The position numbers were made by a program, and so were the translations under genes. A DNA stretch of 64,000 nt from Branchiostoma floridae. Its lineage: Eukaryota > Chordata > Leptocardii > Amphioxiformes > Branchiostomatidae. Below the pieces are notes generated by a model. That model was not told the origin of the DNA. It searched no databases and worked only from the letters and a program-made list of their open reading frames with translations. The stretch covers positions 10,970,253-11,034,252 of the forward strand of contig NC_049995.1 of the NCBI RefSeq assembly GCF_000003815.2, read 5' to 3'. Positions within the stretch are counted from its first letter, which is position 1. Each line of letters begins with the position of its first letter. Below, piece after piece: positions 21,101 through 58,360 of the stretch.

Positions 21101-24100
21101 TCTGTTACAGTAAGCCACAGCCTGGTCAGGTGAGAGCTCTATACACTTGTTATAACACTGGGTGGCTGGTCCAAAGTGTCCTTTCTTGACCAGGGTGTTT
21201 CCTTTCTCCTTAAAGTGCAGGAAAGTGTCTCGAGGGGATGTTGACTTTGCTTGCTTTTTCTCACTTTTTGTGGGAGTTTTTTTCTTGTCTTCCTTCTTTT
21301 CTTCCACTTTCTCTTTCTTTGTTTCTTGTGCTTTTTTGGAACTTTCTGCCTTTTTACTTGTAGACTTTTCAGCATTTTCCTTTTCTTTGTTTGATTTGGA
21401 TGCTTTTCCTTCCTGGGCTGATGGCTCCTTCACTCCATTGACCAATGGTTGTTTAGCTTCAGGTGCTTTGATTTCATTGGCTACTGGTTTACTAGGTTCT
21501 GGTTTCTGATTGGTTGGTGGTGGGGTTGCCGGGGAAACAGTTCTATTTGCACTGTGAGGGCTGTAAGTGGGAATGCTGGGTAATTTTGACCTCCAGTCTG
21601 GTCCATCCAAGTCCTTCAGCATTTGTGCTGATCTAAGGAAAGAAATCAACAATTCATGTACAAAAATGAAATCTTTTTATTTCTATCTGCTATGATTGTG
21701 TATTTGTTTCACATGGGCTTCTACTTGTATCAAACAGGCTTCCATAGAAGACTAGATTTGGTTGTTGCAATTGCTGTTGAACGACTGACCACAAAAAATC
21801 ACATTATCTTGTAACAAAATATAAAAATGTGCTGGTCTAACAGCAGCAAGAATATTGATCGAGGGTTATTAGAGGACACTGACCTGTGTGACCCCTGCTG
21901 TGCCTGGATGTTAGCAGGGTCGATGTTCAGCACATGTTTGTAGTCCACATAAGCCTGCCTGAACCTGAAACATACAAACACAAAGTTGTTAATATGTCGA
22001 TAAAGGTTAGACATCCAGCTAATAAATTATATACACCAAAAAGCAGTTACTCAAGCAGCTGGATATGATTTTGGAAACAGTCAGACGTTTCAGACACCAA
22101 TCGGTGTCATGTCTTTTGTCAGTAAAACTGGAGAGATCTTGTTGGAGAGTAGTTTTTATATCCTAGCTGTGAATTGATATGTAAAAGAGATCTAGTTGAA
22201 GAACAGGTTTATCCTAACTATGAATTAATATGCTACTACAGTGGATTCCAATTATTCGTATTACGCCTTTTTGGATAATTCGGGTAATTGGATAGAATTA
22301 CGAAATCCCAAAACATTTGCCATTCATTCTATTGTTTAGAACATCGCAGAATTGGATAACCCACGGTCTCAAACTTCGGGTTTTTGGATAGAATTACGTC
22401 AGGTCACACAAATTAAAAATGGGAAAATATGCCCTAAAACTCACAAAATGAGTCCAAAGGTAACTAGTAAATGTATGTATAAAGGTGTAAAGCCATGTAA
22501 AGGACCGTAAGAAAGTTACATTCCACAGAAAATCTAGCCGATAGCGCTGTGCTAGCGTGCGAACATTTGGAGTTAGGCGCCATTTTGTTAGGTTGCCGCA
22601 AGGTATGATGAGCGAACGTCATGGGAACGTCAACACGCTTTTGAGTTCATATTTCCCCTTCAGACAACGTCTAAACTTGGTTTACCCTACAAAAATGTGT
22701 TTTTTCATATCCACTGTCTCATTAATTGAGCTGATTTCGGCTGCGCTGCGTAGATTTACAACAACGCACGTAATGCAACAGGGGTGTGATTTTGCAATGA
22801 CCTATCTTGCGCATTGAATGGCGGGATATCTCAACCCACGCGCCGCCATTTTAAATGTTTTGAACGTGAATTTTTTCCGTCTTCCACCGCGAAAGACGGA
22901 AATTTCAGAGTAATTTGTGGACACAAGTTGTAGACAAGAAAGTGAAGAGTTTATCACTCTCCAATACCGCTGTTTTAACTTAGAATTATGAAAGTAACGT
23001 CATATTCTCCGGCATACGAGCGGAGCCATGTTCGTCTTTGTTTTGGTATGCCGCCAAATTGCCGACGCACGGCTGTGGGAGTCAAGCGTACTTTTCCACA
23101 TGTGCATTTAGCCACTGATTTGAACTCTTTATTAGATCGAGCATCTCACAGAAATCGGAACATATGATTAAAGTTTCCGTATCGTTAGAGTGGTAACCTC
23201 TATGAGCGTCTGTGTGTTATGTTTGCGTATTGGTTTTCAAAACTACACCCCTCCCCAACCAATGCCGCTAAAGCTGGTCATATAGCCAACTTCGGACTCT
23301 AGAATAGGCCGGATAATTGGATAAAATGACCAGACAAATAGGCGATACAATAAAGCGGATTCCACTGTATAAAAACTCTCTCACACATTTGATTAAATCC
23401 CCAGTGTCACTGATGAACGACAACAGATGGTTGTCTGAAACATCTTTCCAAAATCATATCCAGTTGCTTGAAAGTAACTGCTTTTTGGTGCAATTTGCAA
23501 TACTTCCTTCACGTTCCAAAAACTTATGCTACCATTCTCTGTGTCATTCGTTCAACCTTCCTGACCACAAAGTCAACTTTTTTAGGCACACTCGCACCAC
23601 TTTTGGCGATCCCAGAGGATGTCATACGTATGATCACATCAACATGTCCTTATCCAATAGCCAGGAATATTCTGTGAATAATGAAATGATGTGAAACACT
23701 AACTTCTCCAGATGTTCATATGCTGTGGCCCTCCTGAGTAGGGGTTTCCAGGAGTGAGGCTGGAGCTGGAGGGCGTGGTCACAGTCGTCAAGGCAACCCT
23801 TCACGTCCCCCACCTTGTTCTTACTGGCAGCACGGTTACTGTACAGGGTGGACAGGCCCTGGCTGTGGTCTGCTTCTTCTGCAATTGTAAATAAAAGGTT
23901 AATAAGTCATTTTCATGGAAGCCCATCTGTGTTGGTACTTGGTAGTAATCATAGTACAATGCTAAACTTTCTTCCAACACAAAGGTATACACGGATAAAA
24001 TTTATACTGAAGTATCCTGACACAAACGCCCCTATTCGCTGCCGTGAGAAGTCTCTCAAACACATCCACATTGAATCTCTTTGCCATAACATTTCACTGG

Positions 24101-27100
24101 ACAATGTCAGGACTATTTTGTATGTAACTTGTAAGAGGTATAAAGGAGGCCATATACATCAGGGCACTCCAGCCATCACTGAACAGAGACGGTGGGTGTT
24201 ATAACCTTCCTAGCACGTTTGACCAATTGCTGACGTCATGTATCCACAAGATCACGTTTTAATTGATGATATGTCTGAAACTCTCGCGAGTTTCCGTTCT
24301 AAAGTAATGGGTCATTAGTATTGATCGTGAAAAAGGTGACAGTGGCTGTTGAAAATTTATACCAATAATTCAATGATGAGATACAATTGTGTAAAATGCA
24401 CTTAAATGTCAACAAACATGAATTTTTATCTTATAGAAAGTAATACGCAACCAACCTTTCTCCAGATCAGTGATGGCCTGGGTGTACTTTTTCATTGCTG
24501 CAGCATACTGGCCCTGTTGGTACAGAGCATTCCCAGCATCCTTCAGTTGGACCACACCATCTGGCAGTGGAGGCGGGGGTGATGGGGCTGGAGCAGGAGG
24601 GGCCACATTTTCCTCACCGTTGGTTACAGCAGTCTCTTCTGTGCTAGATGGTTTTTCTGTGCCTTCGGGATTTTTCGTTTCTTCTTGAGCTTCCTTTGAA
24701 GAGGTCTGTTCTGCTGCTGTTGTGGTAGTTTCTGTGATAGCTTCAGCAGAAGTTTCTTCAACTTTCTTCTCTTCCTGAAGATTTTCTGCAGGTTTAGATG
24801 TGTCTTCATTTCCCTCCTGTACAAAGATGACAATAAAATGCATTTCACTTCATTCTACTGTCTTATAAAATATAAACAACAAAGTATTTCATATGTCAAG
24901 ATAACATGCATCAGCAATTCTTAAGAGAACTTTCAGGCAACAATAACACAGAAGTAAAATAACCTCAAATTTTTTAAAATAGACTTTTCTTTACTACATT
25001 CATGACATTGTATATTATACAAGTCTGTGTACTGATCGCAATCACAATTAATGGTGCACAACCTAAAAGCATCTTCACTATAGGACTCTTCACTATTGGT
25101 CAATAAAACTGGGGTGTGCTCTCTATAAGAACCTGAAGTTAGGAACAAAAAGTTTTCTAAAACAGGTAGATGTATGACTCTTTTCTTTATCAGGCAGGCC
25201 ATCAGGCCTTGAATATTAAGAGTGATAGACTATAAAGTTTCTGTCTTTCTTACATCTTGAGCATCATCAGCTTCCTCTTCCGACTCAGTGTCTCCCCCCT
25301 CCACATCCATGACACCATCCACCTCCTCGATCACCATCCTGCGACCTTTGCCCTTTGACCCCTCAGTTGAAGTTGTCTCTTGAATATTTTTCAGGAGTTC
25401 CTCCGACTTCTTGGCTTCTTCTGATTTTTCAGTGGCTTTTTGATCTTGGACTTCTTTCAACATGGCCTGTGGAAAAATCATCAATTACGGGTTAAAAAGA
25501 TATTTAATGTGTAGTTACTGTTACAGTTACTGTAGTAGTATCCAATATTGGATTATACTATTGCTGAGGTACCTGACACAAGGGTAGGCAGCAGTCAGCT
25601 AGTCTTCACACGATAACACTTTATAAAAATTATGTAATATACTGTGAAAGAAGTATGGTTGGCTAGCAAAAACCTTTAGAACTGTTCTCAAGCTGAACTT
25701 GAAACACTGCATTAGTCTATCTGTAAATCATACTAGTATACTATTTCTTGTTAAACATGTTTAAAGAATTAAGTAGCAGTTCCTTTGCCTGAGCAGTCTG
25801 ATGAACATAATTTTACCTTGCACCACTTAATCCCCTAATCAAGGAAAAGGATTGTCCTAGGTATTTTTGAGTCATTCCTCCTGTTCGTATCATCATGTAT
25901 AGTCCAAAGTGTGGCCATAGGACTGTATCTTTTGAACCACTCACACCAGGAAAGACCCCCTCTCTTCAGTTCAGTTCAGTTCAGTTCATCCTCAGGGAGG
26001 TGACACCATCGTCTCCACATATTCCTATCCAGCATGATCTCTTCTGATGGGTTCTTTAACAGGCTTAAGGTGTGGGTCTTTTCAATCAAGTCCATAAAAT
26101 GAGCAGTGTTTGTAACCTTCATCGACAAAGCAGTGTTTACCTTTGCCTTGGGGTTGTGAGGTTCCTGTTCCAGTACAATAGTCAGGTCAGCTATGGCCTC
26201 CTCCCTCTGTCCTAGTCCCTTCCTACCCATGGCTCTTCTCAACAGGGCTGTGGGGAAACATTGAGTCTTATAAGGGCTGAGTAGTTCGGAGACTAAATAA
26301 GTTGTGAACATACAGTGACCATGACACCATCCAAAATGTAAAATCTCAAAAGAGTAGTTGACAATATTTTCCCACTATTGCAAACTGCCTTACTACCAAC
26401 AAGTCTCCAAGCAGATGTAGTAGTGAGGCTTGTTTCATGTGTTTGGCATTGTTTACGTTGTCACTCCAAAAAAAGGTTTAAATATTTAAGAAATGAAGAA
26501 CAGCAGAAGTGAAGAAAACATAGAACCCGCCAAGTATGCACAATGCATAATATGGTCTGCACTACATTGCCAAAACATGTAAGTCAAAGGGGGGTCAAAT
26601 GGAACTTATAAATGTATTATTAAGACAATTGTTACAGTACCTTTCAGGTTGCCAGGTTCCATCTCCAGGACCACATTAGTGTCATCTACTGCATCCTGCC
26701 ATTTCTCCAGCCTCAGTTCTGTTGTAAAGGGTGAAAGGTCAATATTAGACCAAAAATAGCAAACTGTTCTAGTCCTGAAGATTTTCTTAAGCATACATTT
26801 TCTGCAAATAGTGACGAGTACTGTAAATGCAGAAATATTCGCGGTGGATTAATGTTAATAACCGCGAACTTAAAACCACTGCGAACATTTTTCTAGAATG
26901 GTATTAGATTGTAGTCTATGGTGTTACCGCGAACTTAAATCCACCGCGAAAAGTCCCTTTTCCCGCTACTGCGAAAAGTCCCTTTTCCCGCTACTGTGAA
27001 ATTAAATCCCGGCGAACTTAAATGCATTTACAGTATCTTTTCCAAAGACTTTAAAGAGGTACAAAAACATCACAACCAAGACCACTCAGGTCACAACAGA

Positions 27101-40700: not shown

Positions 40701-41585
40701 GATTCAAACTGGACTACACATGTGTTAGCTGCTAGTACATGATCATTAATTTGTGTTAGAGTACCAGTAATATTCAGTGATCTAGAAATGTATCATAGTG
40801 ATTGTGATTTTTCCCTAGACATTTCCACCTGTACCTAGAGCCCAGGACTGGGCTGCTCAGTCCCAAGTTCAAGGCTTACGGCGTGGACTCCCGAGGGAAT
40901 GTCAAGTACGAACAGGTGGACAAGAACAGCTTCTTCACTGGACAAGTCTTAGGTGAGAATCTGATGATTTTCGTTACTTGAAATGATCATGACATAAAGA
41001 AATACAAATATATTAGTCACCTTGCATGGTGTCCAGAAGTATAAATAAATTATGTTACACTGCAAGCTAGCACATTCACTAGTAAGCCATCAATCCACTT
41101 AGTCTCTTAGAGATCTGTAGTTTAAGTTTATATTGAAGATAGATTGGTACCTATTAGTATGTACCCACTGTCGGTGAGGCTTTTGGACCGGTGAGGTGAG
41201 GTGAGTATGTGTGTGCGTGTGTGTTTGTGTTTACTAAAATCTAAAGACAGTATGGACAAATTATTTAGTTTGTGCTAAAACTCAGTACCTTACTTTGTAC
41301 CTCATACTCAAAGACTGTCAGTCTCACTTGCAGCTTTCTTTGGCATTAGATGTGTAGTTACTTGTATCTTTTGCTCAAAACATGTTATCACTGCCTTCTG
41401 CAGGTGAGCCAGGGTCTACAGTAGAAGCACACCTGGAGGAGGATGGAGTCCTGTCTGCCAGGGTCACAGTGGGAGAGGACATCTACTTTATAGAGGTCAG
41501 ATATGGCTTAAGCATACCCTTGCATTGTCATAAGCCATTTTTACCTTTGCCAAGAAGGTTATGTTTTTGAGTTTTGTAGTGTGTA

Positions 41586-41616
<31 letters not shown>

Positions 41617-44600
41617 TGTCTGTGACCAAGATAACTCGTGAATGCGCAAATGGATTGTTTTGATACTTGGTATGTGGGTAGGTCTTGACAAATTGATTCA
41701 ATTTTGGGCCCCCTGGCAGCTTGTTATGGTACTAGAGTGGAACTTCGATTCCAGTTTTGATATTTCATTTTAGTGTGCAATACTGGATGCACGAGTTTAC
41801 ATAACAATCAGCAGCATAATATTATATTTGTCTGTTCCAGCCATCCTGGAGACACCTCCCTACAGGTGAGAATGTGACCATGATCTCCTACCGGGCCCGA
41901 GATGTCAAGTTCAACTTCACAGGGGCTGGGGCTAAAACTTCTCCTGGAGTAGGGTGAGTTTAAATCACTTGAGTTGATACTACGTGTTATATTCACAATG
42001 AGCAATGGCACAAAAAGATGGTCAAAACTGCCACTCATCATCATCATATCAAAACTGCCACTAAGGGAAGAATAAACAGGATTCGTAATGCTAGTGCCAA
42101 TGGGAAAATTATCTAAGAGACCTGTTAAGTAGCTGCAATGATATGGTGGTCCTTAATCCTTATATAGAGGTGGTCACTAGTACTACAAGTTTTACTATAT
42201 ATCAATGGCTATGTGGTCCTTATACAATAATGTATATCAAGATTGTCACTTTTACTTCTACAAGTTTGATTTTGATGATCTGTTCTGTTCTATCTGGGTT
42301 CCCACATTATTTTCATAAAGTAAGAATAGGCAAAAACTGTATGAAAAAAGAAGTTTCCAAAGAACTGGTTTTATATTGCAACGCTGGTTTTATATTGCAG
42401 GTTCTGTGCTGAGTTTGATGATGATCAACTGCCTCTTCCAAAAGGCCATCGTAGACACAGTACAAATGGTGAGTGCTGCTAGCTGATTGGTGGTTTCCTT
42501 AGCATCATCATTCCCATTTGGTGAATTGCTAATTATAATTCTTTCTATTTCCCCAATCATTGCTGGAATAAAATTTTGGTCCTTAGACCCATGGAAGTTG
42601 ATCCAGATGGCAAAGCAGTGGGTTGCATTACCACTTGAGCCACAAGGACATGCTGATTTCCAAGAAGACACATTTCAGTCAAAGACATGGATGACATTCA
42701 TGTATGTTCCTCATGTTTAATGATAAACAGACAGACCAAGGCGTCAAACAGGCAGCCAGCCCCCCCAGTACGAGAGTCCGACCCCCCCTCCCCCCGATAT
42801 GGACTGTGACATCAGAGGGCCAGCCAAGAACACCTGCCCCATGCAGCTGGTCGCAGACTACAGATTCTTCACTGAGATGGGCCAGAAAAGCCTGCGCCAG
42901 ACTATCAACTATCTGGTAGGTTATGTGTAATAGTGCTGTACCATAGGTTTGAGTGCTATTCTTAGTCTAGTAAAACTGTTAGCAAGATGGGCCAGAACAG
43001 CCTGTGCAAGACTATCAACTACCTGGTAGGTTATGTGTTGTAGTGCTGTACTATAGGTTTCAGTGCTGTTCTTAGTCTTACATGTAGGTAAAACTGTCAC
43101 AGTGGTGAGATGTGTATTGTATAATTTCTTGTAAAACCATCAAACAATGCCAAAATGTCATTTTTATTTCCAGATCAACCTGATCGAAGGCGTGGACAGA
43201 ATATTCCGCTGTACACAGTGGGGGAAGGACATGGGAGGCTTCGGCTTTGAGATCAAGGAGGTGAGTAACTGGAAGAAAAGATTATAGCAGATAAATAGCT
43301 TATCAGATTTGAAGAAAGTAATAACTTGAAAGTTGGGCAACCTGAAATGTTGATGGCACAACATGGCTTATGACTGCGGTTGCCACCAGGGCAACTTGGT
43401 TAAAAGAAGTATTTCGAGCACTATCTTATTACCTGGATGTCTAACCTCTATCAACGCTTCATACACATACATGTACAGAGCTCGAAATACTTTTTTCTGC
43501 ATACCTGCACTGGTGCAGGTAACATTGAAAATTACCTGCACCAGACAAATTTTCCCTTCCCCACTATGAATTTAGGAAGTATGGATTATACTGAAATTAT
43601 TCAGAAACCATTGCTATTTTTTCTTTTATATTTCATAGGTGGTAACAGTCACTACAGATGATAACAATCTATATACAGATTCATTGGACATATATGTATA
43701 AAACCCAGTACATGGACCAGTGCAGGTTAGGTGTAGCTGGTAGACACCAGAAATACCTCCATATCACCAATTTTACCTGCACTAACCTGCATATGTAGGT
43801 GGTATTTCGAGCCCTGATGTAACTGTACATTTTTGTCAGATCAAAGTGCATGAAGAGCCCACCCCACCCACTGGCACTGAATGCTACAATATGGAGCATG
43901 GCAGGTTAAAGACCTGCTGGCTGTAAGTACTTTATCATGTCCTCTGTCTTTTGTCAGATCAAAGTACACGAGGAGCCCACCCCTCCCGGTGGTGCGGAAC
44001 TGTACAACATGGACATGCAGGGGGTCACATGGCAAGTTAGGGATCTACTGGCGGTAAGTACTGTACTGTGGATGACTTTAAGTTCAGGTTGATTTGATTT
44101 TGTAGTACTAGTAGGAAGAAATTGGAGGATTCAAGTTCGCTGTGGAAGCTATAGTAGTGCTACAATCATATACATGTACTGGTAGTGGAAATGCTATGAA
44201 TGCAAGTTCTGCAATTTAGGGACTGTAAGATATTTATCAGGGGGGGAGGGCTGGTGCGTTAGGGGGGGAGGGCCATGTTAATTTTTTTTGAGGTGGGGGG
44301 AGGGCCATGTTAAATTTTTCTAAGATAGGGGGAGGGCCATGTTAATTTTTTTGAAAGAAAAATTTATACTATTTTTGTTTTGATATCTTGACATGGCCCT
44401 AAAACTGATAAAATAAGCCTTCTGAATAGCCTAAAATGTAACAGCTTCCGGGGGGGGCTTAAGTCCCCCAAAAAGTGGCGCTGCCCTGGACCAGCGTTCC
44501 CGCCAGGCATACGTCATTCCGTCTTGGGACTTATTTTTTCTGGAAAGACGCACTCGGCTCGGGTGAGCGTGTCCGTAAAAAATCTGAAAGAAAGGCTGAC

Positions 44601-47600
44601 CTGTACCACCGGTGTGGAATCTTTTTAAAAATCTATCTTTATACGAAGGAATCCTACCTTTACAATTTATACTGGGGCATGGGCGGAGCGCGGCACGTTT
44701 TAGATATATTGGTAGCCGCCCAGAGCCGCCCGTGTCGTCTGGCAAGTTTCTTCCCCAACAATTTACTATTAAACGGTTTCCTCAACTACGCGCGGTGCGC
44801 GGTAATTATGCGAAGAATCCAAAGCTATAAACTTTATTTTTATTTTTATTTACAACATTTCTTTTGTTTCAAAAGGGCAAAATTTGCGGCAGAAAAGGGG
44901 CCGCAATATTGTTGTCAAGCGTCGATCGAGTCGGCTGTGCACTCCGTGGCACATGGCGCGGCACGCCCCCCTCCCCAGACGGACTGTCGATCGCAGCGCC
45001 CAGCACGTTGGGACGTCTTTTCTGGCTACTCCTTCAAGGCTACACCGGCACTGATCACTGCCAAAGACGCAGCAGATCGCCTTCCTTCGTATATTGTACA
45101 TTTGTATAACGTTCTTGGTCTATGTAAAAAAAGAAATCCAGCCAAATATTTCACGCCGAAAACGGGGTTACCTGAGGTTGCAGGAAACGAACGCACGCTC
45201 CTGAAAAATGACGGCGCGGCCCGCCCGTGTAAAACCCGACCAATTTAATTAATTTTAGTAAAATCATCGGCAAAGTAGAAGAAAAAAAAACACAAGGTGT
45301 GATGGCGTCGTTATTCTATGCTCTGGAAAAACTACTAGTATTTTGATGCGGGAGGACGCACCATCGATCGCACGAGGTAGTCATTTTTTTACTCAGTCAA
45401 TGCCGGAAGAAAATTAGCAGGATTTTTCCATGGGCTGACAAACTCACTGGCTAGAGCCCTGTTTCGAAGCATCAATAACCCAAAATTTTCAAATAGACAT
45501 GACTGGACAATAATACCCGGGCCAGATCACTGACGGCTGATTCCCCGTGCTTATAGTTATTTTGTTTATTCTGAATAACGGGAGTAGAAAAAGGCAAACG
45601 GCATCCAATCTCAAGGGCATAATTTTCCTCTCAAATTGCAGGAAATTCTGCTTTAGAGGGTTTGAAAATCCAAATTTTCCCGGGGGAGCATGACCCCGGA
45701 CCCCTGCCCCGACGATGTGAAAAAATCCTGGCAAGAACACTGGCTACACCAGGTGGACGCCGGGTGCCCTTGTGCCCTGACGTCTATATTACTTTAACTT
45801 TATTACTTTAAGTTTTTATCGGTTGTTTTTCTACCCTTTTAATGATGCCTGTCGGGGGGAGGGCCATGTTGATTTTTTTGGGGGGGAGGGGGAGGGTCAC
45901 GTTAATTTTTTTTGAGATGGGGGGGAGGGCCATGAAAAAAATTTTTGATCAGACTTCCAACGCACCAGCCCTCCCCCCCCGATAAATATCGTGCGGTCCC
46001 TTATGCGAGTGATTTACTGAAAATGCAATTATTGTTTTCCTTTTTATGTTTTGCATTGTGAGAGTACAAAATTGTATGTTATTGAGAAGCTATAAAAAAG
46101 TATACTCCCTGTTTTAAAATTTTGCTCTTTGACTTGTTATTTGATAGAAAGTGTGTCATGTGTTCTTCCTGTTCTAGAGAACTTTTTCTATGACTACATT
46201 ACGTTCCTTAGGTTCTTGAGTTCTGCTCCAGAACCTATAGAACCATGGCTGCAGTTCAAGTGAGTTCTGACACTATGTTCAGTGTTCATCTCCTAGAACT
46301 TGCTTCTATGACCACAGTAAGTGAGTTCTATATGTTCCTGTGTTCTGCTGCTATTGTAGAACTTCAGCCTCCATGACTACAGTGAGTTCTGCCTGGCACA
46401 TCTCTTCACATACCAAGACTTTGACCTCGGCGTTCTGGGACTGGGCTGGGTCGGAACTGACCGGAAAGCGGGCATCGGGGGAATCTGCACGGATGGTAGG
46501 TCAAAGTTTCAGGTTCAAGGGTCATCCGGATCATGTTTACAGGTCATAGTTCAGAGGTCATTTGATTTACTAACTGAACTTGATCATACAAGCCATCGCT
46601 GTTGTTGTTTATATCCGGGGTATTGGGCGACAATTTGGTGCCTACCAGGACGTCAGTACATTGGAGCAATGGCTTTTTAACCTCCTTGATTGGATTAAAA
46701 ATTGATATTTATATTAGTAGCTCAAATTACTGGTTAATATGTAAATCAAGCTTTTGCCAAACACCTGCTTTTTGCCTACCACTGCGTCACCGTGACATCA
46801 TCGCGATCGCTCGTATTCAGTGTTCAAGGTCATAGTTTATAGGTCGTTTGTATGTCACAGGTTGAAGGTCTCAGACAAGAGTTCCTTTCAGAATCAAAGC
46901 TTGATAATTTTGACTGCTTTGCATACATGGAAGTTGTTACATGTTTGATTTCATCATAGAACTAAGACTAAGAACTATTCTGTGTAGAAACAAATTCAAA
47001 AACAAGTCTGGGGTAAAAAATCTACTCTTTGGGTTGGTCAAGTCCATCAATTCAACATGCATATATTTTTGGTGACACCCTTTTGTGTTGGAAGTATATC
47101 TTGCCTGTTAAAACTGCATACTCATCGCTAACAGAACTTGAAAGGCTACATTTGCAGATTAACCATAATATGATATCTATGTCACTTGCAGTGTAGGTAT
47201 TTTGATAACTTGCTTTGCACTTTGCAAACTTTGTTCATTGCCATATAACCACAGTAACACTTAACAACTTCATATCTTTTTTCATCTGATATACAAGTAA
47301 AAGTTCCTGTTTAATAATCATCTAGTACTTAATATATTGTACTAGAAAACTATTGCTTGCTTATTATTTGGTAGCAAGTGGAAATACTAGAAAAATTAAC
47401 CAATCAGAGCAGCTCATTGCATTAAATATCATTGAAATGCTGATGACATCATTGGCCAATCACAGGAGATCTTAGGGTACAGCTCAACCAATCAGAAGAG
47501 TCCACATAAAATACTAACCAAATTGTAACCAATCAGAACAGCATACTGCATTTGTCATTGAGCTGCTAATGCCATCATTGGCCAATCACAGAAGGTCTTA

Positions 47601-50600
47601 GGATACAGATCAACCAATCAAAAGAGTCTACAGGAAATACTAACCAACTTTTAACCAATCAGAGCAGCTCACTGTATTTGTCCTTGAGATGATGTCATCA
47701 TTGACCAATCACAGAACATTTGAGTGTACAGCTCAACCAATTAGTTAGTTAGGAACAGTCCACAGGAAATACTGGCCAATCAGAGCAGCATGTTGCATTG
47801 CTCCCCAACAATGAGTGGGGCAGAAAAAAAATCCCTAATTGAAGATCTAGACAACCCTGGTAGAGACTTGAACCCTACCATGCATGCTTGTTGTCTGACT
47901 CAAAGAACCCGGCATGTTTTTGTTCTAGAGTTGAGGTGCACCGATGACCGGTCAGAATGGGAAGTTTGCAGAAATGCATATGGTAAGACTCAGTCTGCCA
48001 GCTGTCGGATGAAATCTCAAGACATCTTCAAGACATCCTCTGTGTCTCCTTTCCTGGATCTTTACGTTTAAGGAACTCTCTGGCAGGATTTTTTGCACTT
48101 GAGATACAAGTATGTTAGAAATAAAACGACTGTTGCTAGAAGTGTCATGGCTTCCATCAACCAGATACCAATAACAAGTTCTCTTTGACATTGCAGTGTA
48201 ATGTTGATTACCAAAAAATTGGCTATCATTCCATTGGCTATCAGCATCATCATGTACATATGATTTAATCTCATGATAGAAATGTGTAAACAAGTTCAGT
48301 TCATGAAACTATAACAATTGTTACTGAGAAATTAGATCCAACTTTCTTAAAACATGTCAAGTAAATTCATTTCAGGGCATTAGAATAAAAGATTAATCAT
48401 TAAAATTTGTACCAACTACCAGTAATACCAGCACCTTGCCATTTTTCAAAAAGAGTAGTCAGAAATGTAAGAAAATTAGATGAATTTCAAGTGCAAAGAA
48501 TCCTCTGAATGATCCTTAAGTTCACAGAGCTCTTTCTTAACTAACCTGGTGCTTTCTCAGGGCAATCATACAGACTGCAGCTCTTCTAGATCTGGTGGAG
48601 GGACTGTTTCCCGACTGCCTGCTGTTTCTACAATTCTGCTTGCCTATCAGCCTTGCGTGCAATATTTCAAGTTTAATATTGATTTATTAAGATGTGTGAT
48701 TATCGAGTTTGCAGCTCAATAAGGGTTAAAGCTCTACCAGCTTTCTGTATATTCTTCTGAACAAGTTTGGTTTGGTGTCCTGTTTGGTACACTTAGTGTT
48801 TTTGTACACTTTGTTTTTTTGTTTGTTTTTGATCATATCTAGTCCTCAGCTCAAGCTCATTTCTTCAGTACTCTTCATGTTACTTCTCAATAGACTGTCA
48901 ACTTTGGTTCAATATCTTGTTTGGTAAACATACTTTGCTGGTGAGCACTGATTACTTTTTATTCATTTTTGTTAAACTACGTGTAGTGTTAAATGAAAAT
49001 GACAAGCTTTGCTCAAGGGATTCTGCATGTCGGTTAACATTGTTTGAATGGAAAAAAATTCCACCCAGCCTATCTCCCTGCAGTGTATAGGAAACAGCAA
49101 GTTACACTATACCTCAACACCGGTCTTACCAGCACACTGAACTGGAACCGACGAATCCTCACGCGAGAGGCCGACCTTGTCACTGCGCACGAACTCGGGC
49201 ACAACTTCGGCAGCGAACACGACACGGATGATCCGGAATGCTCGCCAAACCCGGAACAGGGCGGGAAGTATATAATGTACCAAGTAGCCGTCAGCGGGGA
49301 GGAAAGGAACAATAAGGTAAACAAATTATGCTTACATTCTGGATCAATGTTGAACTGTAATTTTCAGTGTGACATCGCAGAAGCAGTGGATTACTCATAC
49401 CTTGGCAATGACTGAAGTTAGACAGTCAAAAATGTAAGTCAAATTTAAATTACAGTTCAACTTTGACCCAGAGTGACTTCTACCAAGTGAACACAGGTTA
49501 TCATATAGCCAGGCGCCGCAGACCAATCAGAAGGCCCCGTTCCATGTTGGTTATGACGCTGAAATCATAGATTCTGACCAGCCCGGTGTGTATTGCTCCT
49601 TCTGATTGGTCAGAATTTGAATTGACACGTTATGTTGTTTTCGCTTCAAATTCTGACCATTGGCATTCAGAAGGAGCGATACCAATTGACAAAATATGTT
49701 GTCGATTCAAATTCTGACCAATCAGAAGGAGCGACCTTTTGACCTAGACAAATTACTAATCAATTTCTCTCCATTACCCTTTTAGCATCTAAAATAAAAT
49801 ATTGACCAATGTTTCTCCCCCCCCCCCCCCTCCTCTTCAGCTGTTCTCCAACTGTAGTAAGAGGTCAATTTACAAGGTGCTGTCAGCCAAGCACTCTCTT
49901 TGTTTTGTCGGTAAGTCATTTGATTTCCTTGTTTCAGGTACCTTTGGAGTGTGTGTGTTTTGTCAGCAAACAAATCTAACTCAAGAAGCTAAGGATGGAT
50001 CCTATATGTAGTAAGTGGATAGGGATCGATAATGGACCTCTAGCAGCTGTCTTCAGTACTGCAATTAAACTTTGTCATTCTTAATGCTTTTGTCAATGGG
50101 AAAAATTATGTAAGGGACCACAATGTGGTCACATTATGTAAGGGACCACATTGTGGTCACATTATGTAAGGGACCACATTGTGGTCACATTATGTAAGGG
50201 ACCACAAAGTGGGCACATTGGTCAGGCCCTTATGTAGAGATGGTCACTTGAACATGTTTGACTGTATAGTGACTTGGTAGCATCCCTGGTCAATCAGAAT
50301 TATATGTGTTGGAGGATCTGCTCCCCAGTGTAATTATAAGGGTGTTTAGTGCGTTCAATTTTTTAATCCTTTTTAGAACAGGACGCCTGGCTAAAAGCTT
50401 GTCATCTGTACATGTAGAAGTGGTTATTAGCTTGTAGAAGTGGTAACTTGTACAGGTTTGACTGTACGTTTATTTGGTCTGTCATTTCTAGAGCCCCAGA
50501 AGTCCCTGTGTGGGAACTACCGTGTTGAGGAGGGGGAGGACTGTGACCCTGGTCACCTTGGGAACAAGAACACTGACCCCTGCTGTACCGGGGAGTGCAA

Positions 50601-53600
50601 GTTCAAGGGGAACGCTGTGTGTAGGTGAGTTGTGCTGTCATCTCAGTCTTAATGCAACATACCAAACAAACTGAATGTTATTAAACATTATTAGTATGAA
50701 CTTGTGTGTGTAGAACATACAGACCTTACCTTAGACCTTAGGTCTTCCCGTGCCGTAAAGCACACAAGGCAGCAAGCTTCCATCGGCCAACATACAGGGT
50801 TGTTGGAATATAGCTGGCTTGTTGGAACATAGGGCTGTCAGACTAGTAATTTTCTGCATTAAATTTCGTATGGTCAGATAACCAACCTTCAGCGTGATTT
50901 ACCAGCTTCGCAGGCACGTGGCATGGCAGCAGCTGGTTATAACACACTGACTGACAAGCCAACCTAACCATTGCATTCTAGCTATAAGTGTTGTTTAAAG
51001 TGCCTTTATGAGGATACTCCTACGGTAGCAACATGTTCCACTCTATGATAGTTGTTAGGAAAAATTGATTTTATAACACCTCAATCCTGGGATGGTACTG
51101 TAAGTGTAAATGCATTTAAGTTCGCGGGGATTTAATTTCGCGGTAGCAGGTACACAATGTAAAAGGACTTTTTGCATCGGATTTAAGTTGGGTAACACCA
51201 TAGACTGCAGTCTAATACAATAATAGAAAAATGTTCGTGGTGGTTTTAAGTTCGCGGTGAAGTGGTCACTGCGAAAACCGCGAACATTAATCCACCGCGA
51301 ACATTTCTGCATTTACAGTAACTCCGGTACTTGAAGACATGAATATCTCCTGTTCTTTATTTGAGGTGGTATTAGATACTTAATAGTAATTAGTTTGTGG
51401 ACCAGATTTTCAATCATTTTGTGTAGATCTGTATAAATCATGGTTGGTTTGTTTACAGTGACAACAACTCCCCCTGCTGTCTGAACTGCACCTTTGCTCC
51501 CAGCTCTCACGTCTGTCGGAAGCCCGCGCCCCCCGAGGATGACGCAACATGCAAACAGGCCGCCTACTGTACATATCCTTTTGAATTCTGATTCTGAGTC
51601 TTTTTTCTTAATGAGTTGTGCTCAGTGCAAGGCCATTGACCACTTCTAGGCACTGAACTGCTCTAACTGTAGCAGCAAGTCATCAGCTTTGGCAATTTTG
51701 ACTGACTGACTCAATAGGCAAAGCAGGGGTTATGAATGTTGCTCAGGAATTCAAATTCCCTACCCAATTTAGTAATAGAATGGTTTGATTCACTCACACT
51801 GGAATGACCCCTACTTTTTTTGTTAAGTGTGGTGGATTCTTTGACGGTCTCGGCGTGTGACTCTCTCCAAACACAAGACCTGTAGTCTAGCAATAAACAC
51901 AAGATTAAAACATATTTGGTTTGTTTATTTCTTTTTACCTCCATAAAAAATTGAGGTATTGTTTGGGGGTATTTGCATGTGTGTCAGTGTGTTTTTGTCC
52001 CAAGATATTTGTGGTCAGCATAACATACATGTATGAACATCTAATTGGATTTTGATGATAATGATATTTGGTGTATGACATTAGGTCTTTGAAGATGAAG
52101 GTCAAATAATTGTTCCATTCTATTCATATTACTAACTTTGCAAGTGAGACCTTCCTTGGAAATCATTGGAATAGCTGAGGTGACTACCACAAAGATATAG
52201 GATTAACAACATGATTTGTTGATTGTCCTTAACACTGACCACTGGAACCAGTCCGGACTGTCCAGCTTCTGAACCCAGGAATAACGGCACCTGCATTGCG
52301 GAGTAAGTTTAGCTTAATTATTATATAATGATATTTCTCTTCAAACAAGGAGTTTCTATTCAAACAAGCTCAGTGGTCAAAATTTTCCTCAAAGTCCCAC
52401 CAATCATACATCTGTACAACCTATTTCTCTTTACGATTGCTAATGCAAAGAGAAAACATGTAACCATGTACACATTGTATAGTGTTGTAGTGTCTTTACC
52501 CCATGTAGTATTCGTATCCCAAGCAGTGTCCATACCCCCATTAGTATCCATACTCCCTGTATTGTCGTTTCACCTTGTAGTTGTCCCAGAAGTAACAAGT
52601 AAATTGCTATTACCTTCATCAAGATTGTAATGTCCTCTTGTGAACAGGGAAACTCCATTCCCCATGCCCTGTACAGTTTGTAGCTACATGTATAGCTTGA
52701 TGCATGTTGAATGTATAATTGATGAATGTAAAGCTGAAACCTTCTCTTGTTGTTGCAGTGGCCAGTGTAGGAATGGAACCTGCATGCCTTTCTGTGAGAG
52801 CCGTGGGCTCCAATCCTGCCTGTGTCAGAATGGTCAGTAAAATAGCGACATGATTCATTCAGACCCTTGAATAGTGCCTATAGTGGCATATGGGGCAGCC
52901 AGTTTTCATGCTGTAACATTACAAAACCATTCTTTCTTGTGGGACCGGCCAAAAAAAATATGGACCTGAAAAAATTAGTGGACCGTATTTTGGACCAAGT
53001 AGAAAATGACCAGATTATATCAGCAGGAGTTTAAATGTTTTGGCACTTACCGGTTCAAGTGGGAAGTAGAGTAGAGTCATTAATACATTTAGCTCCTGTA
53101 CTCAACCAACAGGGGCTATTTGACATATTACCAGGGGCTATTTGACGTTTAACATACAACCTTGTCTTGACTTTGTCTTTTATTGTACCATCATAGATTT
53201 TTCCTCATCTGATAGACAAATCAATTCAGAGTTTTGGTTCAAAAGCGGGTAAATTCAGATGTTGGTCCAGTCACTAATAAAAAACAGCAAATGCTGTCCC
53301 AAATGTCTGTTTACAGTTGGTTGATGTAACCATCGTTTGATGTTAGAGCCTTGCTTTGTATTTTCCAGTGAGCGAGTCGTGCAACGTGTGCTGTATGAAC
53401 ATGTCCCACCCCCAGGGCATGTGTAAACCCTACCAGGAAACTCCCCAGGCTGAACTCAAGTGGCAGCAAGCCGGCAAACCCTGTATACAGGGCTACTGTA
53501 ACATGGAGGTAGGAATATTACTCTCTCTGTACCAGCCCATGTTAACACAATCTTTTACTAGGTAAAGCTAAGGGCACAACCCGCCGTACATGCAATTTGT

Positions 53601-56600
53601 CCGTAAGTGTTGTTTTTTTAGGCCACGTCCGCCACATATTTCTGAAAACTTTCTGGCTGCACAGGGCAGGCACGTCGCCCGTACTGGCATGGGGAGGGGG
53701 GGGGGGTGTGGTCAAATCTGCAGCCCAATGGCACACAAACTTTTGCCTCCACTAAATTGCTCTTGGTCCCAGCCCTCCCGCGGATCGGACCACCCTCCGG
53801 CCTTCGGACGATCTGACTTTAAAAATCCCGAGGCCCAGCCGTGCCCAAAGATAGCCTGGTAGCCACAGGGTGTCCCATGTAGAAGTGAAAAAAAAGCCTA
53901 TTTATTACCCAGGCGCCCTTTAGTTTTTTTATCAATTGCAACTAAAGCATCAGGCAGTCTAATTGTTCAACAGTTGAACTGATACTCTAATACTAAATTT
54001 TAAATTCAATGTTTTTTTTTTCTCTTGTCTGCAGGGTAAATGTGAGAAGCAAGCCCAGGACCTGGTCAATCGCTTCTGGGACATCATCCAATGGATTTCA
54101 CCTGACAAAATTGGTATGGGCAGATTAGTGTAATCCTCTTTATGGCTCATTAGTTCATACTTATCTGATGATAACAAGGTCTTTTTGCCCTGAGCCTGGT
54201 TGTTTTGCCCTTAAAGGGTACACAAAGTAGACTTTAATGGATACAAATTATGTAGTATACATGTTGCACTGATTTTAACCTATTCCAGTCAAGAAAACTG
54301 TTGTAATAGTTAGCTATAATAGAGTTGGATAACTGGCTAGAAAATATATCTTCAATGTGCATGACTGTGGTTTTAATAATATCTAGTACACATTTGTACA
54401 TCATACAGCTGAGACGATGGCAGCCAACATTGTTGGGACAGTGTTGATTCTCTCTCTGATGTTCTGGGTGCCGTGTGGCTGTCTGGTGCATGTGGTGGTA
54501 AGGACTCAATAATATATTTATTTATTTAGTACACGTTTATGCACAGCCAAGACGATGGCAGCCAACATTGTCATGACAGTTGTTTCTTTCTCTGATGTTC
54601 TGGATGCCATGTTGTTGTCTGGAGTGCATGTGGTGGTGAAGAAACAATTGTCAATTCATTTATCTTCATGTAAGAAGGGGGCAGAAGGTTTACGTGGTAT
54701 TTTTGTAATGCTTTGCCAAACTCATTGAGTAGTACGGTAGTTAAGATTTGAAATGTATATCCACAGTCTTACATGTGTTTATTTTCATTGCCAGAATCGT
54801 ATATGTTTAGATACCCATAAAACTCTCCAAGCAGAAGTTAGGCTCCAGCTGTTTTGTAACATTTTTAAGTCATTTTATCTGGCTTTCTATTTTGTATTTT
54901 ATCTTGTCAAAATGCTGGCCCTCATTCAAGAAACTTGACAAAATAGAAAGCCCCATGTAAAAACGACAAAAAAAGGTTAAAAAAACAGCCTCTGCTTAAC
55001 CTCTGCTTGGAGAATAACCCATAAGTCCATGTTCTTTATTCATTTGGTGGTGAGCCAATCTTCTTTTCCTTTCATGTGTTTGTTAAACTTTCTGTTTGTT
55101 CTTTTCTCTTATTTGTTCACAGAAAGACAAAAATAGACATGGTTTCCAAGGTCTCCTCCTTCAGTTCAATATCTTCATTTTGTAATAACACTAACTTGTG
55201 TGATGTTTTTGATTAATAGCATGAATGCAACGTCATCATTTGCTCAATGTTATGTTGTAGAAAGTTAAGTCAGTTTTCCTCATTTTAATTTCCAGCTCAC
55301 ACTCTTTTACCATAGTACATGAAATTGTACATTTCATTACCCAGTTTGTTGTCTGTTGCCTGTCACTTAGTTACACTTTTATTACTCCTTAAAAGGATGT
55401 TAACCTCCTGAGGAGTTGTGTGGGTTACTGATGTTTGCAGCTGTATCCCTGTGTTCCCTTTGTTGATTCGCTTGTACTTTGGCAAGTCATCTGCTCACAG
55501 TTGCGCGATGATGCATGATCCATTTCATATTTGCACCCTCTTTGATACATTTTCGCCAATCCAAAGCTTTCATTTGTGTGGATTTCATGTTTTCCTTATT
55601 CCTTTTTTTCCAGGACAAGAGGAGGCTGAAGAAGCGGCAGCTTGAAGAGGAAGCATCCAAGGTTTGTTTAATAGATATATTTTTATTGCACAGCAATTGT
55701 ACAAGGTACAAAGTTTGGCATCTACTGGTACATAAGACTAGACTAAGTGTACATAATGTTCCATAAGGCTTGTCTACCTAAGACAAGAGTGTGTAGTATA
55801 AGATGATAATTGATTAGCATTCAACATGCATCTTCTATTGATCATACTGTAGGTGCAGCGCAATTCAGTCTCGCAAATGATCAATGCCCTTTGAGACGGT
55901 CAATACCACATTGCTGACTCAGGTTAATGCATATCCAAGAGTATCATAGGGTGGGGGGCAAAACATGCAAAAAGCAGACAACTAAAATGGTGTTAGGTGT
56001 TAGGTGTGACGGGTCGTTCGGTGTAATATAACCAGCTGCTGCCGTGCCGCGTGCCTACGGAGCTGGTGTGTTACGCCAAACGGGTTATACCGGCTATGTA
56101 GATACAGATACAGATAAAATGCATGGAGATTCTAGCGTCACTAATTGTGGTCATTTCTGTCTTTTTGACATGATTGTTTATGTTTGTCATGTTTTTCTCT
56201 TTTCTGGACCTGCATGGATGTGCATGATCTGCCAGAGAGCGTTTGTTTGGTTCTGAGGTTTGAGATTGTTTTGTCATATTTGTTTAATCTCCAGGCAGAT
56301 TTTTAATACCGATGGCATAAGAGCATAATAAGTGCATAAAGAAATAAGTTGGGCAAAAATGCCTTCAGTATAAAATCTAAATGGGACGGTTATACAGTTA
56401 TACAATATCTGAACTAACAGAATATTGGCATGGTCTTTATTTCCCTGGTGAGGCCCATTGAGTTAAGCCTGTGAAACATATTATCAAGGAGGTTTTATCA
56501 AGCTTTTCAATGCTATATTATCATAATAAAACTTCCTTGATACGGCTGCCACCTTTTTTTTTCAGAAGTTTCTAACACAGACTGCTTGACGTTTTAAGGC

Positions 56601-58360
56601 CCACTTTCATGTATTTGCAGTTATTTTCATTGCTGTGGTGTGTATGAAGTATTACAGGGCATGAATTAGCTGTCTGCTATTTGCATAATCAGTGCACAGT
56701 AGAATTGGTGTCAAAGCTTCTGACCTGAAACCATTTTTGTGAACCATCGTCCGACAAAGTCTGAAATTAGAGAAAAAATATATATTTAGCCTTGTTGCTT
56801 TTTTACCACAACAAGAGATTTTATACATGTTAATTTTAATTTTTAAAAGAACCCACCACACCTTTCAAAAAAGAAATAGCAATAGTACAAATTCTTCCTT
56901 CCTTTTATCTGATACATAAAATTATACAGTCAAACCTGTATTAGCGGCCACCTCTGCATAACGGCCAACTGCCAATAGTGGCCACTTTTTGTCGGTCCCT
57001 TGGATTCGTAATGATTAAGAAATAGGCTTAGCGGCCACCTGTCCAATGCGGCCACGGCCACATGATTTCCGGTCCCGCAGGTACAAAAACACTGCCGATT
57101 ACGGCCACGCGGACCGCTGATCTATGTTTCGACACGCGTTCGGCCATATACAGCGGCCTTATCGTAACCCTAGGCGGATTTAAAACCTCTTTGACTTATT
57201 TTCAAAACAAAACTTCGTAAACTGGCGCTACCCATACCCGCTGACAAACGAGGTCATATAAGTTCAATAGACGACACCAATATTACGGAGGTAAATTGTG
57301 TTAAAGTTACGTTCTAATACACTATCGCTTAGGTTTATTTACATCACAAAAATTTCTAAATAAATTGTTACAAAGACAAAATGATATGAACTTCAGACTA
57401 TGGTGGATTTTATTCTTACATTTATTAAGAGATAAGTCTAAAATGACGTGACTTTTCTTGTGAGTACCACATTAGCATAATGGGCAAATCTGACGTGTGA
57501 ACGCGAGCGGGAACACATGGACGGCGAAGTATCAAAGGATGCAAGACGAAAGATCAAAGAAATATGACGATACCGGTCTCTTCAGGCAATATATCAATTG
57601 TAGAACATTTAAAACTTTTTTCAGCTTTTGTTTTCTTAATACATATAGTTTAAAAATCATTGCAGTACATGTACAGTACAGTATTATGTGAATAAAGATC
57701 AGTGGGTACTAAAACAATGTGTAACTTATTGCTTGTGGTCAATTAATTAGCATATTCTCTATAGTGGCTACCTCTCTATAGTGGCCAATTTTGACCAGTC
57801 CCTTGAGTGGCCGCTATAGACAGGTTTGACTGTATTCTTTTTGGGTCATTGGAGGCAATTATCAGCTTCTAACAAAATTGCAGGATATACATAACACTTT
57901 GAAAGAGTCTTGTATTCCCAGAATACAAGTACATGTATAATGTGATAGGTATATAAATTATATGTATGTTGGGTTTCTTATCACTTTGTCTTTTCCTTCC
58001 CAGAACACACTTGTGCGCGACGAAGACAAACATCGCATCAAGCCAGGCTCCGTCCAATGGCTTCCATCCCGAGGGTCCCGCCTACCGACCCTTGGACCAA
58101 TGAAATCCGATGCCTCCAGCCCTCCCCTACGGCCACGGCCGAAGCTACGTCATCGTCATGATGCAACGAGCGACGACGCCCAACCTCCCTCCCCAACGTC
58201 AAGCACGGACACGGTTCCGATTGATGACCTCTTGGCGCAGTACACGGATAGGGTCACAGAACTGGCCGCAGCGAGCGATGATAGGTTAGACGACTGTTTG
58301 GGCACGACTAAGGCAGATGTTGAAGCCGCTCCCCCCGTAGAAAGAGAAACTGTCATTTAG
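37783..58360 (+). CDS. ADAM17: ADAM17/TACE metalloprotease
   Basis: Complete 21-exon model: 37783-37852, 39742-39883, 40819-40952, 41404-41495, 41841-41953, 42401-42468, 42731-42915, 43174-43260, 43958-44053, 46360-46495, 49069-49316, 49841-49910, 50492-50624, 51459-51572, 52243-52302, 52759-52832, 53369-53508, 54035-54113, 54409-54497, 55614-55661, 58004-58360; 844 residues. Signal peptide about 1-20; prodomain with a likely cysteine switch (about C186) and furin site RPRR (208-211); zinc site [11 protein letters not shown] (415-425) and Met-turn YIMY; disintegrin region from [15 protein letters not shown]; cysteine-rich membrane-proximal region; stalk helix; transmembrane helix about 686-707; 136-residue tail ending ETVI. 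Matches ADAM17 rather than ADAM10 through [13 protein letters not shown]-like [20 protein letters not shown] and the stalk. ADAM17 sheds membrane proteins such as TNF and EGFR ligands. Intron 14 is AT-AC. Upstream in-frame ATGs (37726, 37750) exist; 37783 gives the clearest signal peptide. Confidence 0.95.
38322..39550. mobile_element. DNA transposon-like element with CGTTAAGCGTTACC subterminal repeats
   Basis: Ends GAGGGTCTGCATG and CATGCAGACCCTC are perfect inverted repeats, flanked by the direct repeat AGTAAA (38316-38321 and 39551-39556), a good target-site duplication. About five (A/C)CGTTAA(G/T)CGTTA units sit inside the left end and three inside the right. The middle has four degenerate copies of an AAAATGCAGGAAATGGCGTTT block. 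No transposase recognised. In ADAM17 intron 1. Confidence 0.8.
42987..43082 (+). pseudogene. Partial duplicate of ADAM17 exon 7 end and donor
   Basis: Repeats 42877-42972 with an offset of 110 bp: the last about 40 coding bases of exon 7 (GATGGGCCAGAA..CTATCAACTA.CTG), the donor GTAGGTTATGTGT and intronic sequence up to TTCTTAGTCT. It has no acceptor of its own, so it is a by-product of tandem duplication rather than a usable exon. Confidence 0.8.
43476..43816. mobile_element. Short inverted-repeat element in ADAM17 intron 8
   Basis: CAGAGCTCGAAATAC at the left is mirrored by GTATTTCGAGCCCTG at the right, with CTGCACTGGTGCAGGTAA and TTACCTGCACTAACCTGCA just inside. About 340 bp, non-coding. 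Confidence 0.6.
43840..43922 (+). pseudogene. Decayed duplicate of ADAM17 exon 9
   Basis: Preceded by the same TTTTGTCAG acceptor as exon 9 (43958-44053) and followed by the same GTAAGTAC donor. It begins ATCAAAGTGCATGAAGAGCC against ATCAAAGTACACGAGGAGCC in exon 9. It is 83 bases against 96, a 13-base loss after ATGGA, which breaks the frame. Inclusion would disrupt the metalloprotease domain. Confidence 0.9.
44218..46001. mobile_element. 1.8-kb element with G-rich inverted ends
   Basis: The left end AGGGACTGTAAGATATTTAT then C/A GGGGGGGAGGGCTGGTGCGTT, and the right end reads back as AGGGACCGCACGATATTTAT then CGGGGGGGGAGGGCTGGTGCGTT. GGGGGGAGGGCCATGTTAATTTTTTT is repeated inside both ends. 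One open frame of 257 codons (44475-45248) has no recognised motif. In ADAM17 intron 9. Confidence 0.75.
46168..46359 (+). repeat. Iterated copies of the ADAM17 exon 10 acceptor
   Basis: Three imperfect copies of the region TAG|AACTTCAGCCTCCATGACTA precede the true exon 10: at about 46176 (TAG AGAACTTTTTCTATGACTA), about 46239 (TAG AACCATGGCTGCAGTTCAAG) and about 46294 (TAG AACTTGCTTCTATGACCA). GTGAGTTCT or a variant follows in most. They look like tandem copies of the splice junction. Confidence 0.6.
47395..47795. repeat. CCAATCA-rich tandem array
   Basis: About three and a third imperfect units of roughly 120 bp. Each carries AACCAATCAGA(A/G)CAGC, CATCATTGGCCAATCACAG and CTCAACCAATCA. The array thus holds about a dozen CCAAT motifs in one orientation, in ADAM17 intron 10. 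Confidence 0.8.
49598..49732. repeat. Inverted repeat in ADAM17 intron 11
   Basis: GCTCCTTCTGATTGGTCAGA...TTTGAAT is mirrored by ATTCAAATTCTGACC...CAATCAGAAGGAGCG. A third partial copy (TCAAATTCTGACC, then ATTCAGAAGGAGCG) lies between. It can form a long hairpin. Confidence 0.75.
50104..50215. repeat. Tandem repeat, about 32-bp unit, four copies
   Basis: ATTATGTAAGGGACCACA(T)TGTGGTCAC is repeated nearly perfectly four times. Each unit contains the short palindrome GACCACA.TGTGGTC. The segment that follows resembles decayed CAGTCAAACC-type elements. In ADAM17 intron 12. Confidence 0.8.
51098..51318. mobile_element. TACTGTAAATGC MITE
   Basis: TA-flanked, with CTGTAAGTGTAAATGC and GCATTTACAG ends. 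The inner sequence closely follows 30661-30868, including GTGAAGTGGTCAC and CCGCGAACATTAATCC. In ADAM17 intron 13. Confidence 0.8.
51573..52242 (+). other. AT-AC (U12-type) intron 14 of ADAM17
   Basis: The intron begins ATATCCTTTT right after ...TACTGTAC and ends TCCTTAACACTGACCAC just before TGGAACC. ATATCCTT is the U12-type donor consensus. TCCTTAAC (52226-52233) is the U12 branch-site consensus, with the branch adenosine about 10 bases from the AC terminus. The join restores the conserved CTGTSPDCP reading in phase 2. No AG acceptor is available nearby that keeps the frame. Confidence 0.9.
54547..54635 (+). pseudogene. Tandem duplicate of the ADAM17 transmembrane exon 19
   Basis: 89 bases, exactly the length of exon 19 (54409-54497), with its own CACAG acceptor and GTGAAG donor, and open in the same phase. 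The first 11 codons match (ACGATGGCAGCCAACATTGT). A one-base loss and a later one-base gain then shift the middle, giving [13 protein letters not shown] in place of the hydrophobic helix. If spliced in, it would weaken or remove membrane anchoring; more likely it is a decayed copy. Confidence 0.85.
56927..57832. mobile_element. CAGTCAAACCTGT-ended pogo/Tc1-like non-autonomous element
   Basis: Perfect ends CAGTCAAACCTGT / ACAGGTTTGACTG, flanked by TA on both sides. GCGGCCAC and TAGTGGCCA blocks recur just inside the ends in both orientations. About 906 bp in ADAM17 intron 20; no transposase recognised. Degenerate relatives lie at 3963-4145 and about 17340-17420. Confidence 0.8.

Follow-up and report, generated by a model that had tools for sequence, protein, structure and literature searches.

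The ADAM17 gene in the DNA analysed here (a stretch of 64 kb, hereafter the window) very probably carries one U12-type AT-AC intron, which lies between the disintegrin and membrane-proximal domains and would be removed by the minor spliceosome; we put the probability of this reading at about 95%. The identity of the gene, the sequence signals, the reading frame and the best junction are directly established. By themselves, the donor and branch motifs are not significant across 64 kb. Because bare motifs are not rare over such a length, the convincing point is their placement at a junction that is defined by homology.

The ADAM17 gene model

Eighteen exons, with 17 introns between them, were placed by eye from open frames, guided by solved ADAM17 and by the human protein; the first exon or exons, with the start codon and signal peptide, lie outside this model. 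The joined frame contains one stop only, at its end (the stop codon ends at 58360). GT-AG ends are present in 16 of the 17 introns, and the remaining one, 51573-52242, has AT-AC ends. The gene model and the positions within it that are used below are as follows.

40819-58360, + strand: ADAM17 gene model, based on the match to PDB 8snl, the Pfam domains and the joined open frame
42735, + strand: acceptor of the pro3-to-cat1 intron, from the gene model
51459-51572, + strand: upstream exon, disintegrin part, ending GCC TAC TGT AC; its ...KQAAYCT aligns to solved ADAM17
52243-52302, + strand: downstream 60-nt exon, with 19 residues after the split Thr codon and then a GTAAGT donor, placed by frame and homology

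The preliminary description had named the host gene as ADAM17, and this assignment was borne out by the match to PDB 8snl, the lead over ADAM10 and the set of Pfam domains. The ADAM17 chain of PDB 8snl, which we take to be the human protein, is matched over its residues 78-694 by residues 1-615 of the model (E 9.9e-162), and a 173-residue spliced query spanning the AT-AC junction matched solved ADAM17 with an E value of 4.5e-34. For the open frame that contains the zinc site, ADAM17 was the best solved match (3.6e-30 versus 7.7e-11 for ADAM10), and the zinc-binding motif (11 residues) is intact in the model. Pfam recognized reprolysin, Disintegrin (1.2e-12) and ADAM17_MPD (7.9e-14) domains, the Disintegrin domain being located 5' and the ADAM17_MPD domain 3' of the AT-AC junction. 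In its protease, disintegrin and ADAM17_MPD domains and over the 615 matching residues, the model is like ADAM17/TACE, an M12B metalloprotease.

Several parts of the gene are repeated. Parts of exons, together with their flanks, are tandemly duplicated at 42875-42968 and 42985-43078 (90% identical) and at 43831-43895 and 43949-44013 (80% identical), and the membrane-spanning exon is repeated at 54405-54525 and 54543-54663 (78-86% identical); the model uses one copy from each of the three duplications, and the remaining copies may be decayed or may serve as alternative exons. In addition, ADAM17 introns contain a 55-nt unit present three times at 47441-47744 (spacing of 126 and 123 nt; the later copies share 85-87% identity with the first) and a 28-nt tandem repeat with the internal palindrome GACCACATTGTGGTC at 50105-50216. 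The intron preceding the AT-AC one carries, at 51100-51322, inverted repeats with arms that include AAGTTCGCGG and CCGCGAACATT and are 76-81% complementary, which look like a small transposon remnant.

U12-type signals in the AT-AC intron

The signals of the intron were located at the following positions.

51573-52242, + strand: AT-AC intron of 670 nt in phase 2, of the U12 type judging from its sequence (motifs and junction scan)
51573-51582, + strand: U12-type donor ATATCCTTTT, 9/9 on RTATCCTTT
52226-52233, + strand: U12-type branch site TCCTTAAC by consensus match, with candidate branch adenosine 52231 or 52232
52241-52242, + strand: terminal AC acceptor, at the best-scoring junction

The intron starts with ATATCCTTTT and finishes with CCTTAACACTGACCAC. 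Its 5' boundary reads ...GCCTACTGTAC/ATATCCTTTTGAATTC... and its 3' boundary ...GATTGTCCTTAACACTGACCAC/TGGAACC..., and the predicted spliced joint is ...TACTGTAC + TGGAACC.... The other 16 ADAM17 introns score only 2-5/9 on the donor consensus that this intron matches at every position. The branch site, GTCCTTAAC, is exact on the 8-mer and 8/9 on TTCCTTRAY, where its first base is G. Among the valid branch-site scores, which cover the introns other than pro3-to-cat1, the TM-to-G intron also reaches 8/9, with TTCCTTATT, which is without the second A. The donor therefore weighs most, because the branch score alone cannot separate the AT-AC intron from the TM-to-G intron.

Counted to the last base of the intron, the second candidate branch adenosine (52232) lies 10 nt away and the first (52231) 11 nt, in agreement with the earlier estimate of about 10 bases. 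As given in the available text of PMC3584512, the optimum between the branch A and the 3' splice site is 11-13 nt, and either A may serve; the spacing seen here is thus at the lower end of that optimum. By eye, a polypyrimidine tract is absent before the AC, and CTTAACACTGACCAC precedes the exon.

Chance expectation and other U12-like signals in the window

The window contains two exact copies of ATATCCTTTT and 12 with at most one mismatch, versus 7.94 expected for the latter, and two copies of TCCTTAAC versus 2.45 expected. When the window is modelled as a first-order Markov chain, exact donors arise at 2.1e-6 per base, which is a rough value (3.84 Mb gave 8 events). The corresponding rate for branch sites that reach at least 8/9 and have AC 9-14 nt beyond them is 1.8e-4 per base. 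From these rates, with 13 permitted positions on each side, hand arithmetic puts the chance of both signals at one junction at ~6e-8, and over 17 junctions at ~1e-6. This figure bears on the possibility that the signals are a chance arrangement within a dead or mis-assembled ADAM17 gene. In favour of that explanation, all the evidence comes from a single window, where assembly errors are possible, and parts of exons recur inside the gene as several short tandem copies. However, besides the low joint probability at the AT-AC junction, the 18 exons are open with one terminal stop and the zinc-binding motif is preserved, and we consider such an arrangement exceedingly improbable.

The second exact ATATCCTTTT, on the - strand at 12197, could pair with an AC at 11235 or 11231 that goes with a branch-like site. 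This pairing was rejected because both acceptors sit inside an open frame, 11124-11489, that matches GT4-conflict; a third possible partner of the same donor is located at 7464. On the + strand, GTATCCTTT at 18924 has its sole acceptor partners 7.1 and 8.4 kb away in a scan extending to 10 kb, and the open frame before it, 18607-18891, had no Pfam match. The donor of the AT-AC intron could itself be paired with a branch-plus-AC at 56552, an unlikely combination that skips the placed exons C, D, E, F and TM as well as the next one.

Elsewhere in the window, three repeated - strand frames, 5825-7141, 9685-10653 and 11124-11489, match the Pfam GT4-conflict glycosyltransferases (E values of 1.2e-72, 5.2e-55 and 1.4e-11, respectively). 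This family is named after conflict systems, and the window holds several adjoining copies in an animal genome. TPR-like frames at 20669-21676 and 24409-24849 score below or near the Pfam cut-offs. A search of the 64-kb window for RNA genes at the Rfam gathering score gave no matches, a result that says nothing on the remaining genome.

Choice of the splice junction

Joining 51572 to 52243 gives ...YCT/G... (Tyr-Cys-Thr-Gly), the same as in solved ADAM17, and the junction falls inside the codon equivalent to Thr549 of that protein, which by the numbering of the chain places it after c.1646. We tried 707 GT-AG, GC-AG and AT-AC pairs, 51 of which were open, and the AT-AC pair 51572/52243 scored highest, at 193; the runners-up (182, 180 and 180) share its donor or adjoin it. 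All GT-AG and GC-AG joints enumerated between the two exons fell below this score. The AT-AC pair was likewise the top one of 29 canonical open junctions around both exon ends. When any dinucleotide was allowed within 24 nt on either side of both ends, none of 1026 open junctions exceeded it, and the four ties listed are this joint or synonymous versions of it displaced by 1-2 bases, among which the AT-AC joint is the sole canonical one.

The same procedure was applied to the other junctions as a control. At all 15 junctions within the solved chain (14 GT-AG and the AT-AC one), the accepted pair came out ahead of all other canonical ones, and an AT-AC pair won at none of the 14 others; the outcome of this control is partly built in, since knowledge of the protein had guided the placement of the exon ends by eye. 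Once the dinucleotide rule is dropped, non-canonical joints (1-62 per junction) outscore the accepted pair at 10 of the 14 control junctions, and therefore the alignment score alone cannot fix a junction to the base. The TM-to-G and G-to-last junctions, which ranked 4th of 20 and 12th of 16, fall outside the 15-junction control because the solved chain stops at residue 694.

The best GT-AG pair, 51568/52266, corresponds to an ordinary U2-type intron with its GT at 51569 and its AG at 52264-52265, and uses the following site.

51569-51570, + strand: weak GT overlapping the exon end, donor of GT-AG pair 51568/52266, score 149

This pair keeps the frame, yielding ...AAYSSEPRNN..., and conversion of a U12-type into a U2-type intron through a small shift of the splice site is known in another gene, according to the part of PMC2846911 available. 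However, its score is 149, compared with the 193 of the AT-AC pair, and in its protein 11 residues are replaced by SS, nine fewer, with the loss of two cysteines that are present in solved ADAM17. Furthermore, its donor, ACT/GTACAT, is weak-looking and, by eye, its AG is without a long pyrimidine tract, and a GT-AG intron at this place would leave a perfect U12 donor and the branch site unexplained. An ordinary intron is thus very improbable.

Among the best 25 of the 51 open pairs, the AT-AC donor also combines in frame with other AC acceptors, with exon starts at 52234 (180), 52240 (182), 52249 (175) and 52291 (152). The acceptors ending at 52239, which adds a Thr, and at 52248, which leaves out Gly-Thr, might serve as minor alternatives, both being in frame. 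Their scores of 182 and 175, respectively, are nonetheless lower than 193; moreover, the former AC lies 7-8 nt past the branch adenosine, below the optimum given in the available part of PMC3584512, and the latter 16-17 nt past it. That either of them is the actual acceptor appears hardly probable. The AT-AC joint 51572/52243 accordingly remains the best-scoring one, as the preliminary description had it, although the assertion that only this junction restores the conserved reading went slightly too far, in view of the in-frame acceptors with the same donor and lower scores.

Predicted splicing and consequences of intron retention

Splicing at 51572/52243 by the minor spliceosome, and with it a dependence of ADAM17 on this machinery, is what the sequence features predict. 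The U11 and U12 snRNAs would recognize ATATCCTTTT and TCCTTAAC, with U4atac, U6atac and U5 supplying the rest of the minor spliceosome on the intron; cleavage at the AC, which lies 10-11 nt beyond the branch adenosine, would then join ...TAC TGT AC to T GGA ACC....

If the intron were retained, translation would soon end at the following codon.

51589-51591, + strand: in-frame TGA reached on intron retention, from the retained translation

The retained sequence reads ...YCTYPFEF*, that is, five added residues (YPFEF) after the Thr and then TGA, and retention as a coding form was rejected on this ground: five further residues followed by a stop. The stop precedes the membrane-proximal and transmembrane segments, so that minor splicing would be required for full-length ADAM17 anchored in the membrane. 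The RNA with the retained intron might be degraded by nonsense-mediated decay or, alternatively, give rise to a truncated protease without a membrane anchor, two outcomes predicted from the reading frame. In mouse and human, the retention of minor introns can vary by tissue (PMC6717393, available text). Should the ADAM17 intron be retained at times, it would provide a simple switch between an anchored and a truncated protease.

A further-reaching scenario is that the minor spliceosome controls the main shedding protease in this lineage, the AT-AC intron deciding between membrane-bound and truncated, unanchored ADAM17, that vertebrates have lost or converted the intron, and that the overlapping weak GT is a visible step of such a conversion; we regard this scenario as speculative and rather unlikely. 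If the intron is old, ADAM17 would become a case for tracing the loss or conversion of minor introns across animals. Given that, in the accessible portion of PMC2831892, the AT-AC subtype converts to U2-type less often than the GT-AG subtype, the fate of the ADAM17 intron in relatives would be telling. ADAM17 acts in Notch activation, release of EGF-receptor ligands and TNF-alpha conversion (PMC1867822, in the text available), and to this gene the present analysis adds a minor intron that is clean and close to perfect.

Comparison with known minor introns

The literature searched names no minor intron in ADAM17, which is weak evidence, gene lists in supplements and databases being outside the reach of that search. 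The exon structure of ADAM17 was not found in the available text of PMC1867822, a paper considered for ADAM17 in amphioxus. A literature search for a human exon boundary at the equivalent site yielded, for c.1646, a TGM1 variant, and a search for relatives among viral contigs returned none.

Minor introns make up ~0.3% of vertebrate introns and have a similar density in other deeply diverging deuterostomes, tunicates excepted; in human, ~26% of them are AT-AC (PMC10639083, available text). In view of these two figures, it is uncommon, though not strange, for an animal gene to hold one AT-AC minor intron, and the rarity asserted in the preliminary description, while fair, is moderate. Class motifs as printed in the accessible part of PMC2831892 are ATATCCTT for the donor and TCCTTAAC for the branch site. 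With U12-type AT-AC introns, the ADAM17 intron shares the AT and AC termini, the ATATCCTT donor, the TCCTTAAC branch site, the short spacing and the lack of a pyrimidine tract. It is also a lone minor intron among GT-AG ones, and its phase 2 fits the bias of minor introns away from phase 0 (PMC10639083, same text). Structurally, no difference from this class was found, and it is the host gene, ADAM17, that sets the intron apart.

Rare AT-AC introns that are spliced by the major spliceosome (U2-type AT-AC) exist as well. The terminal dinucleotides are alike in these introns and in that of ADAM17, whereas the ADAM17 donor and branch site are those of the U12 consensus. The ADAM17 AT-AC intron is very probably a fresh example of a well-known intron class rather than a new phenomenon.
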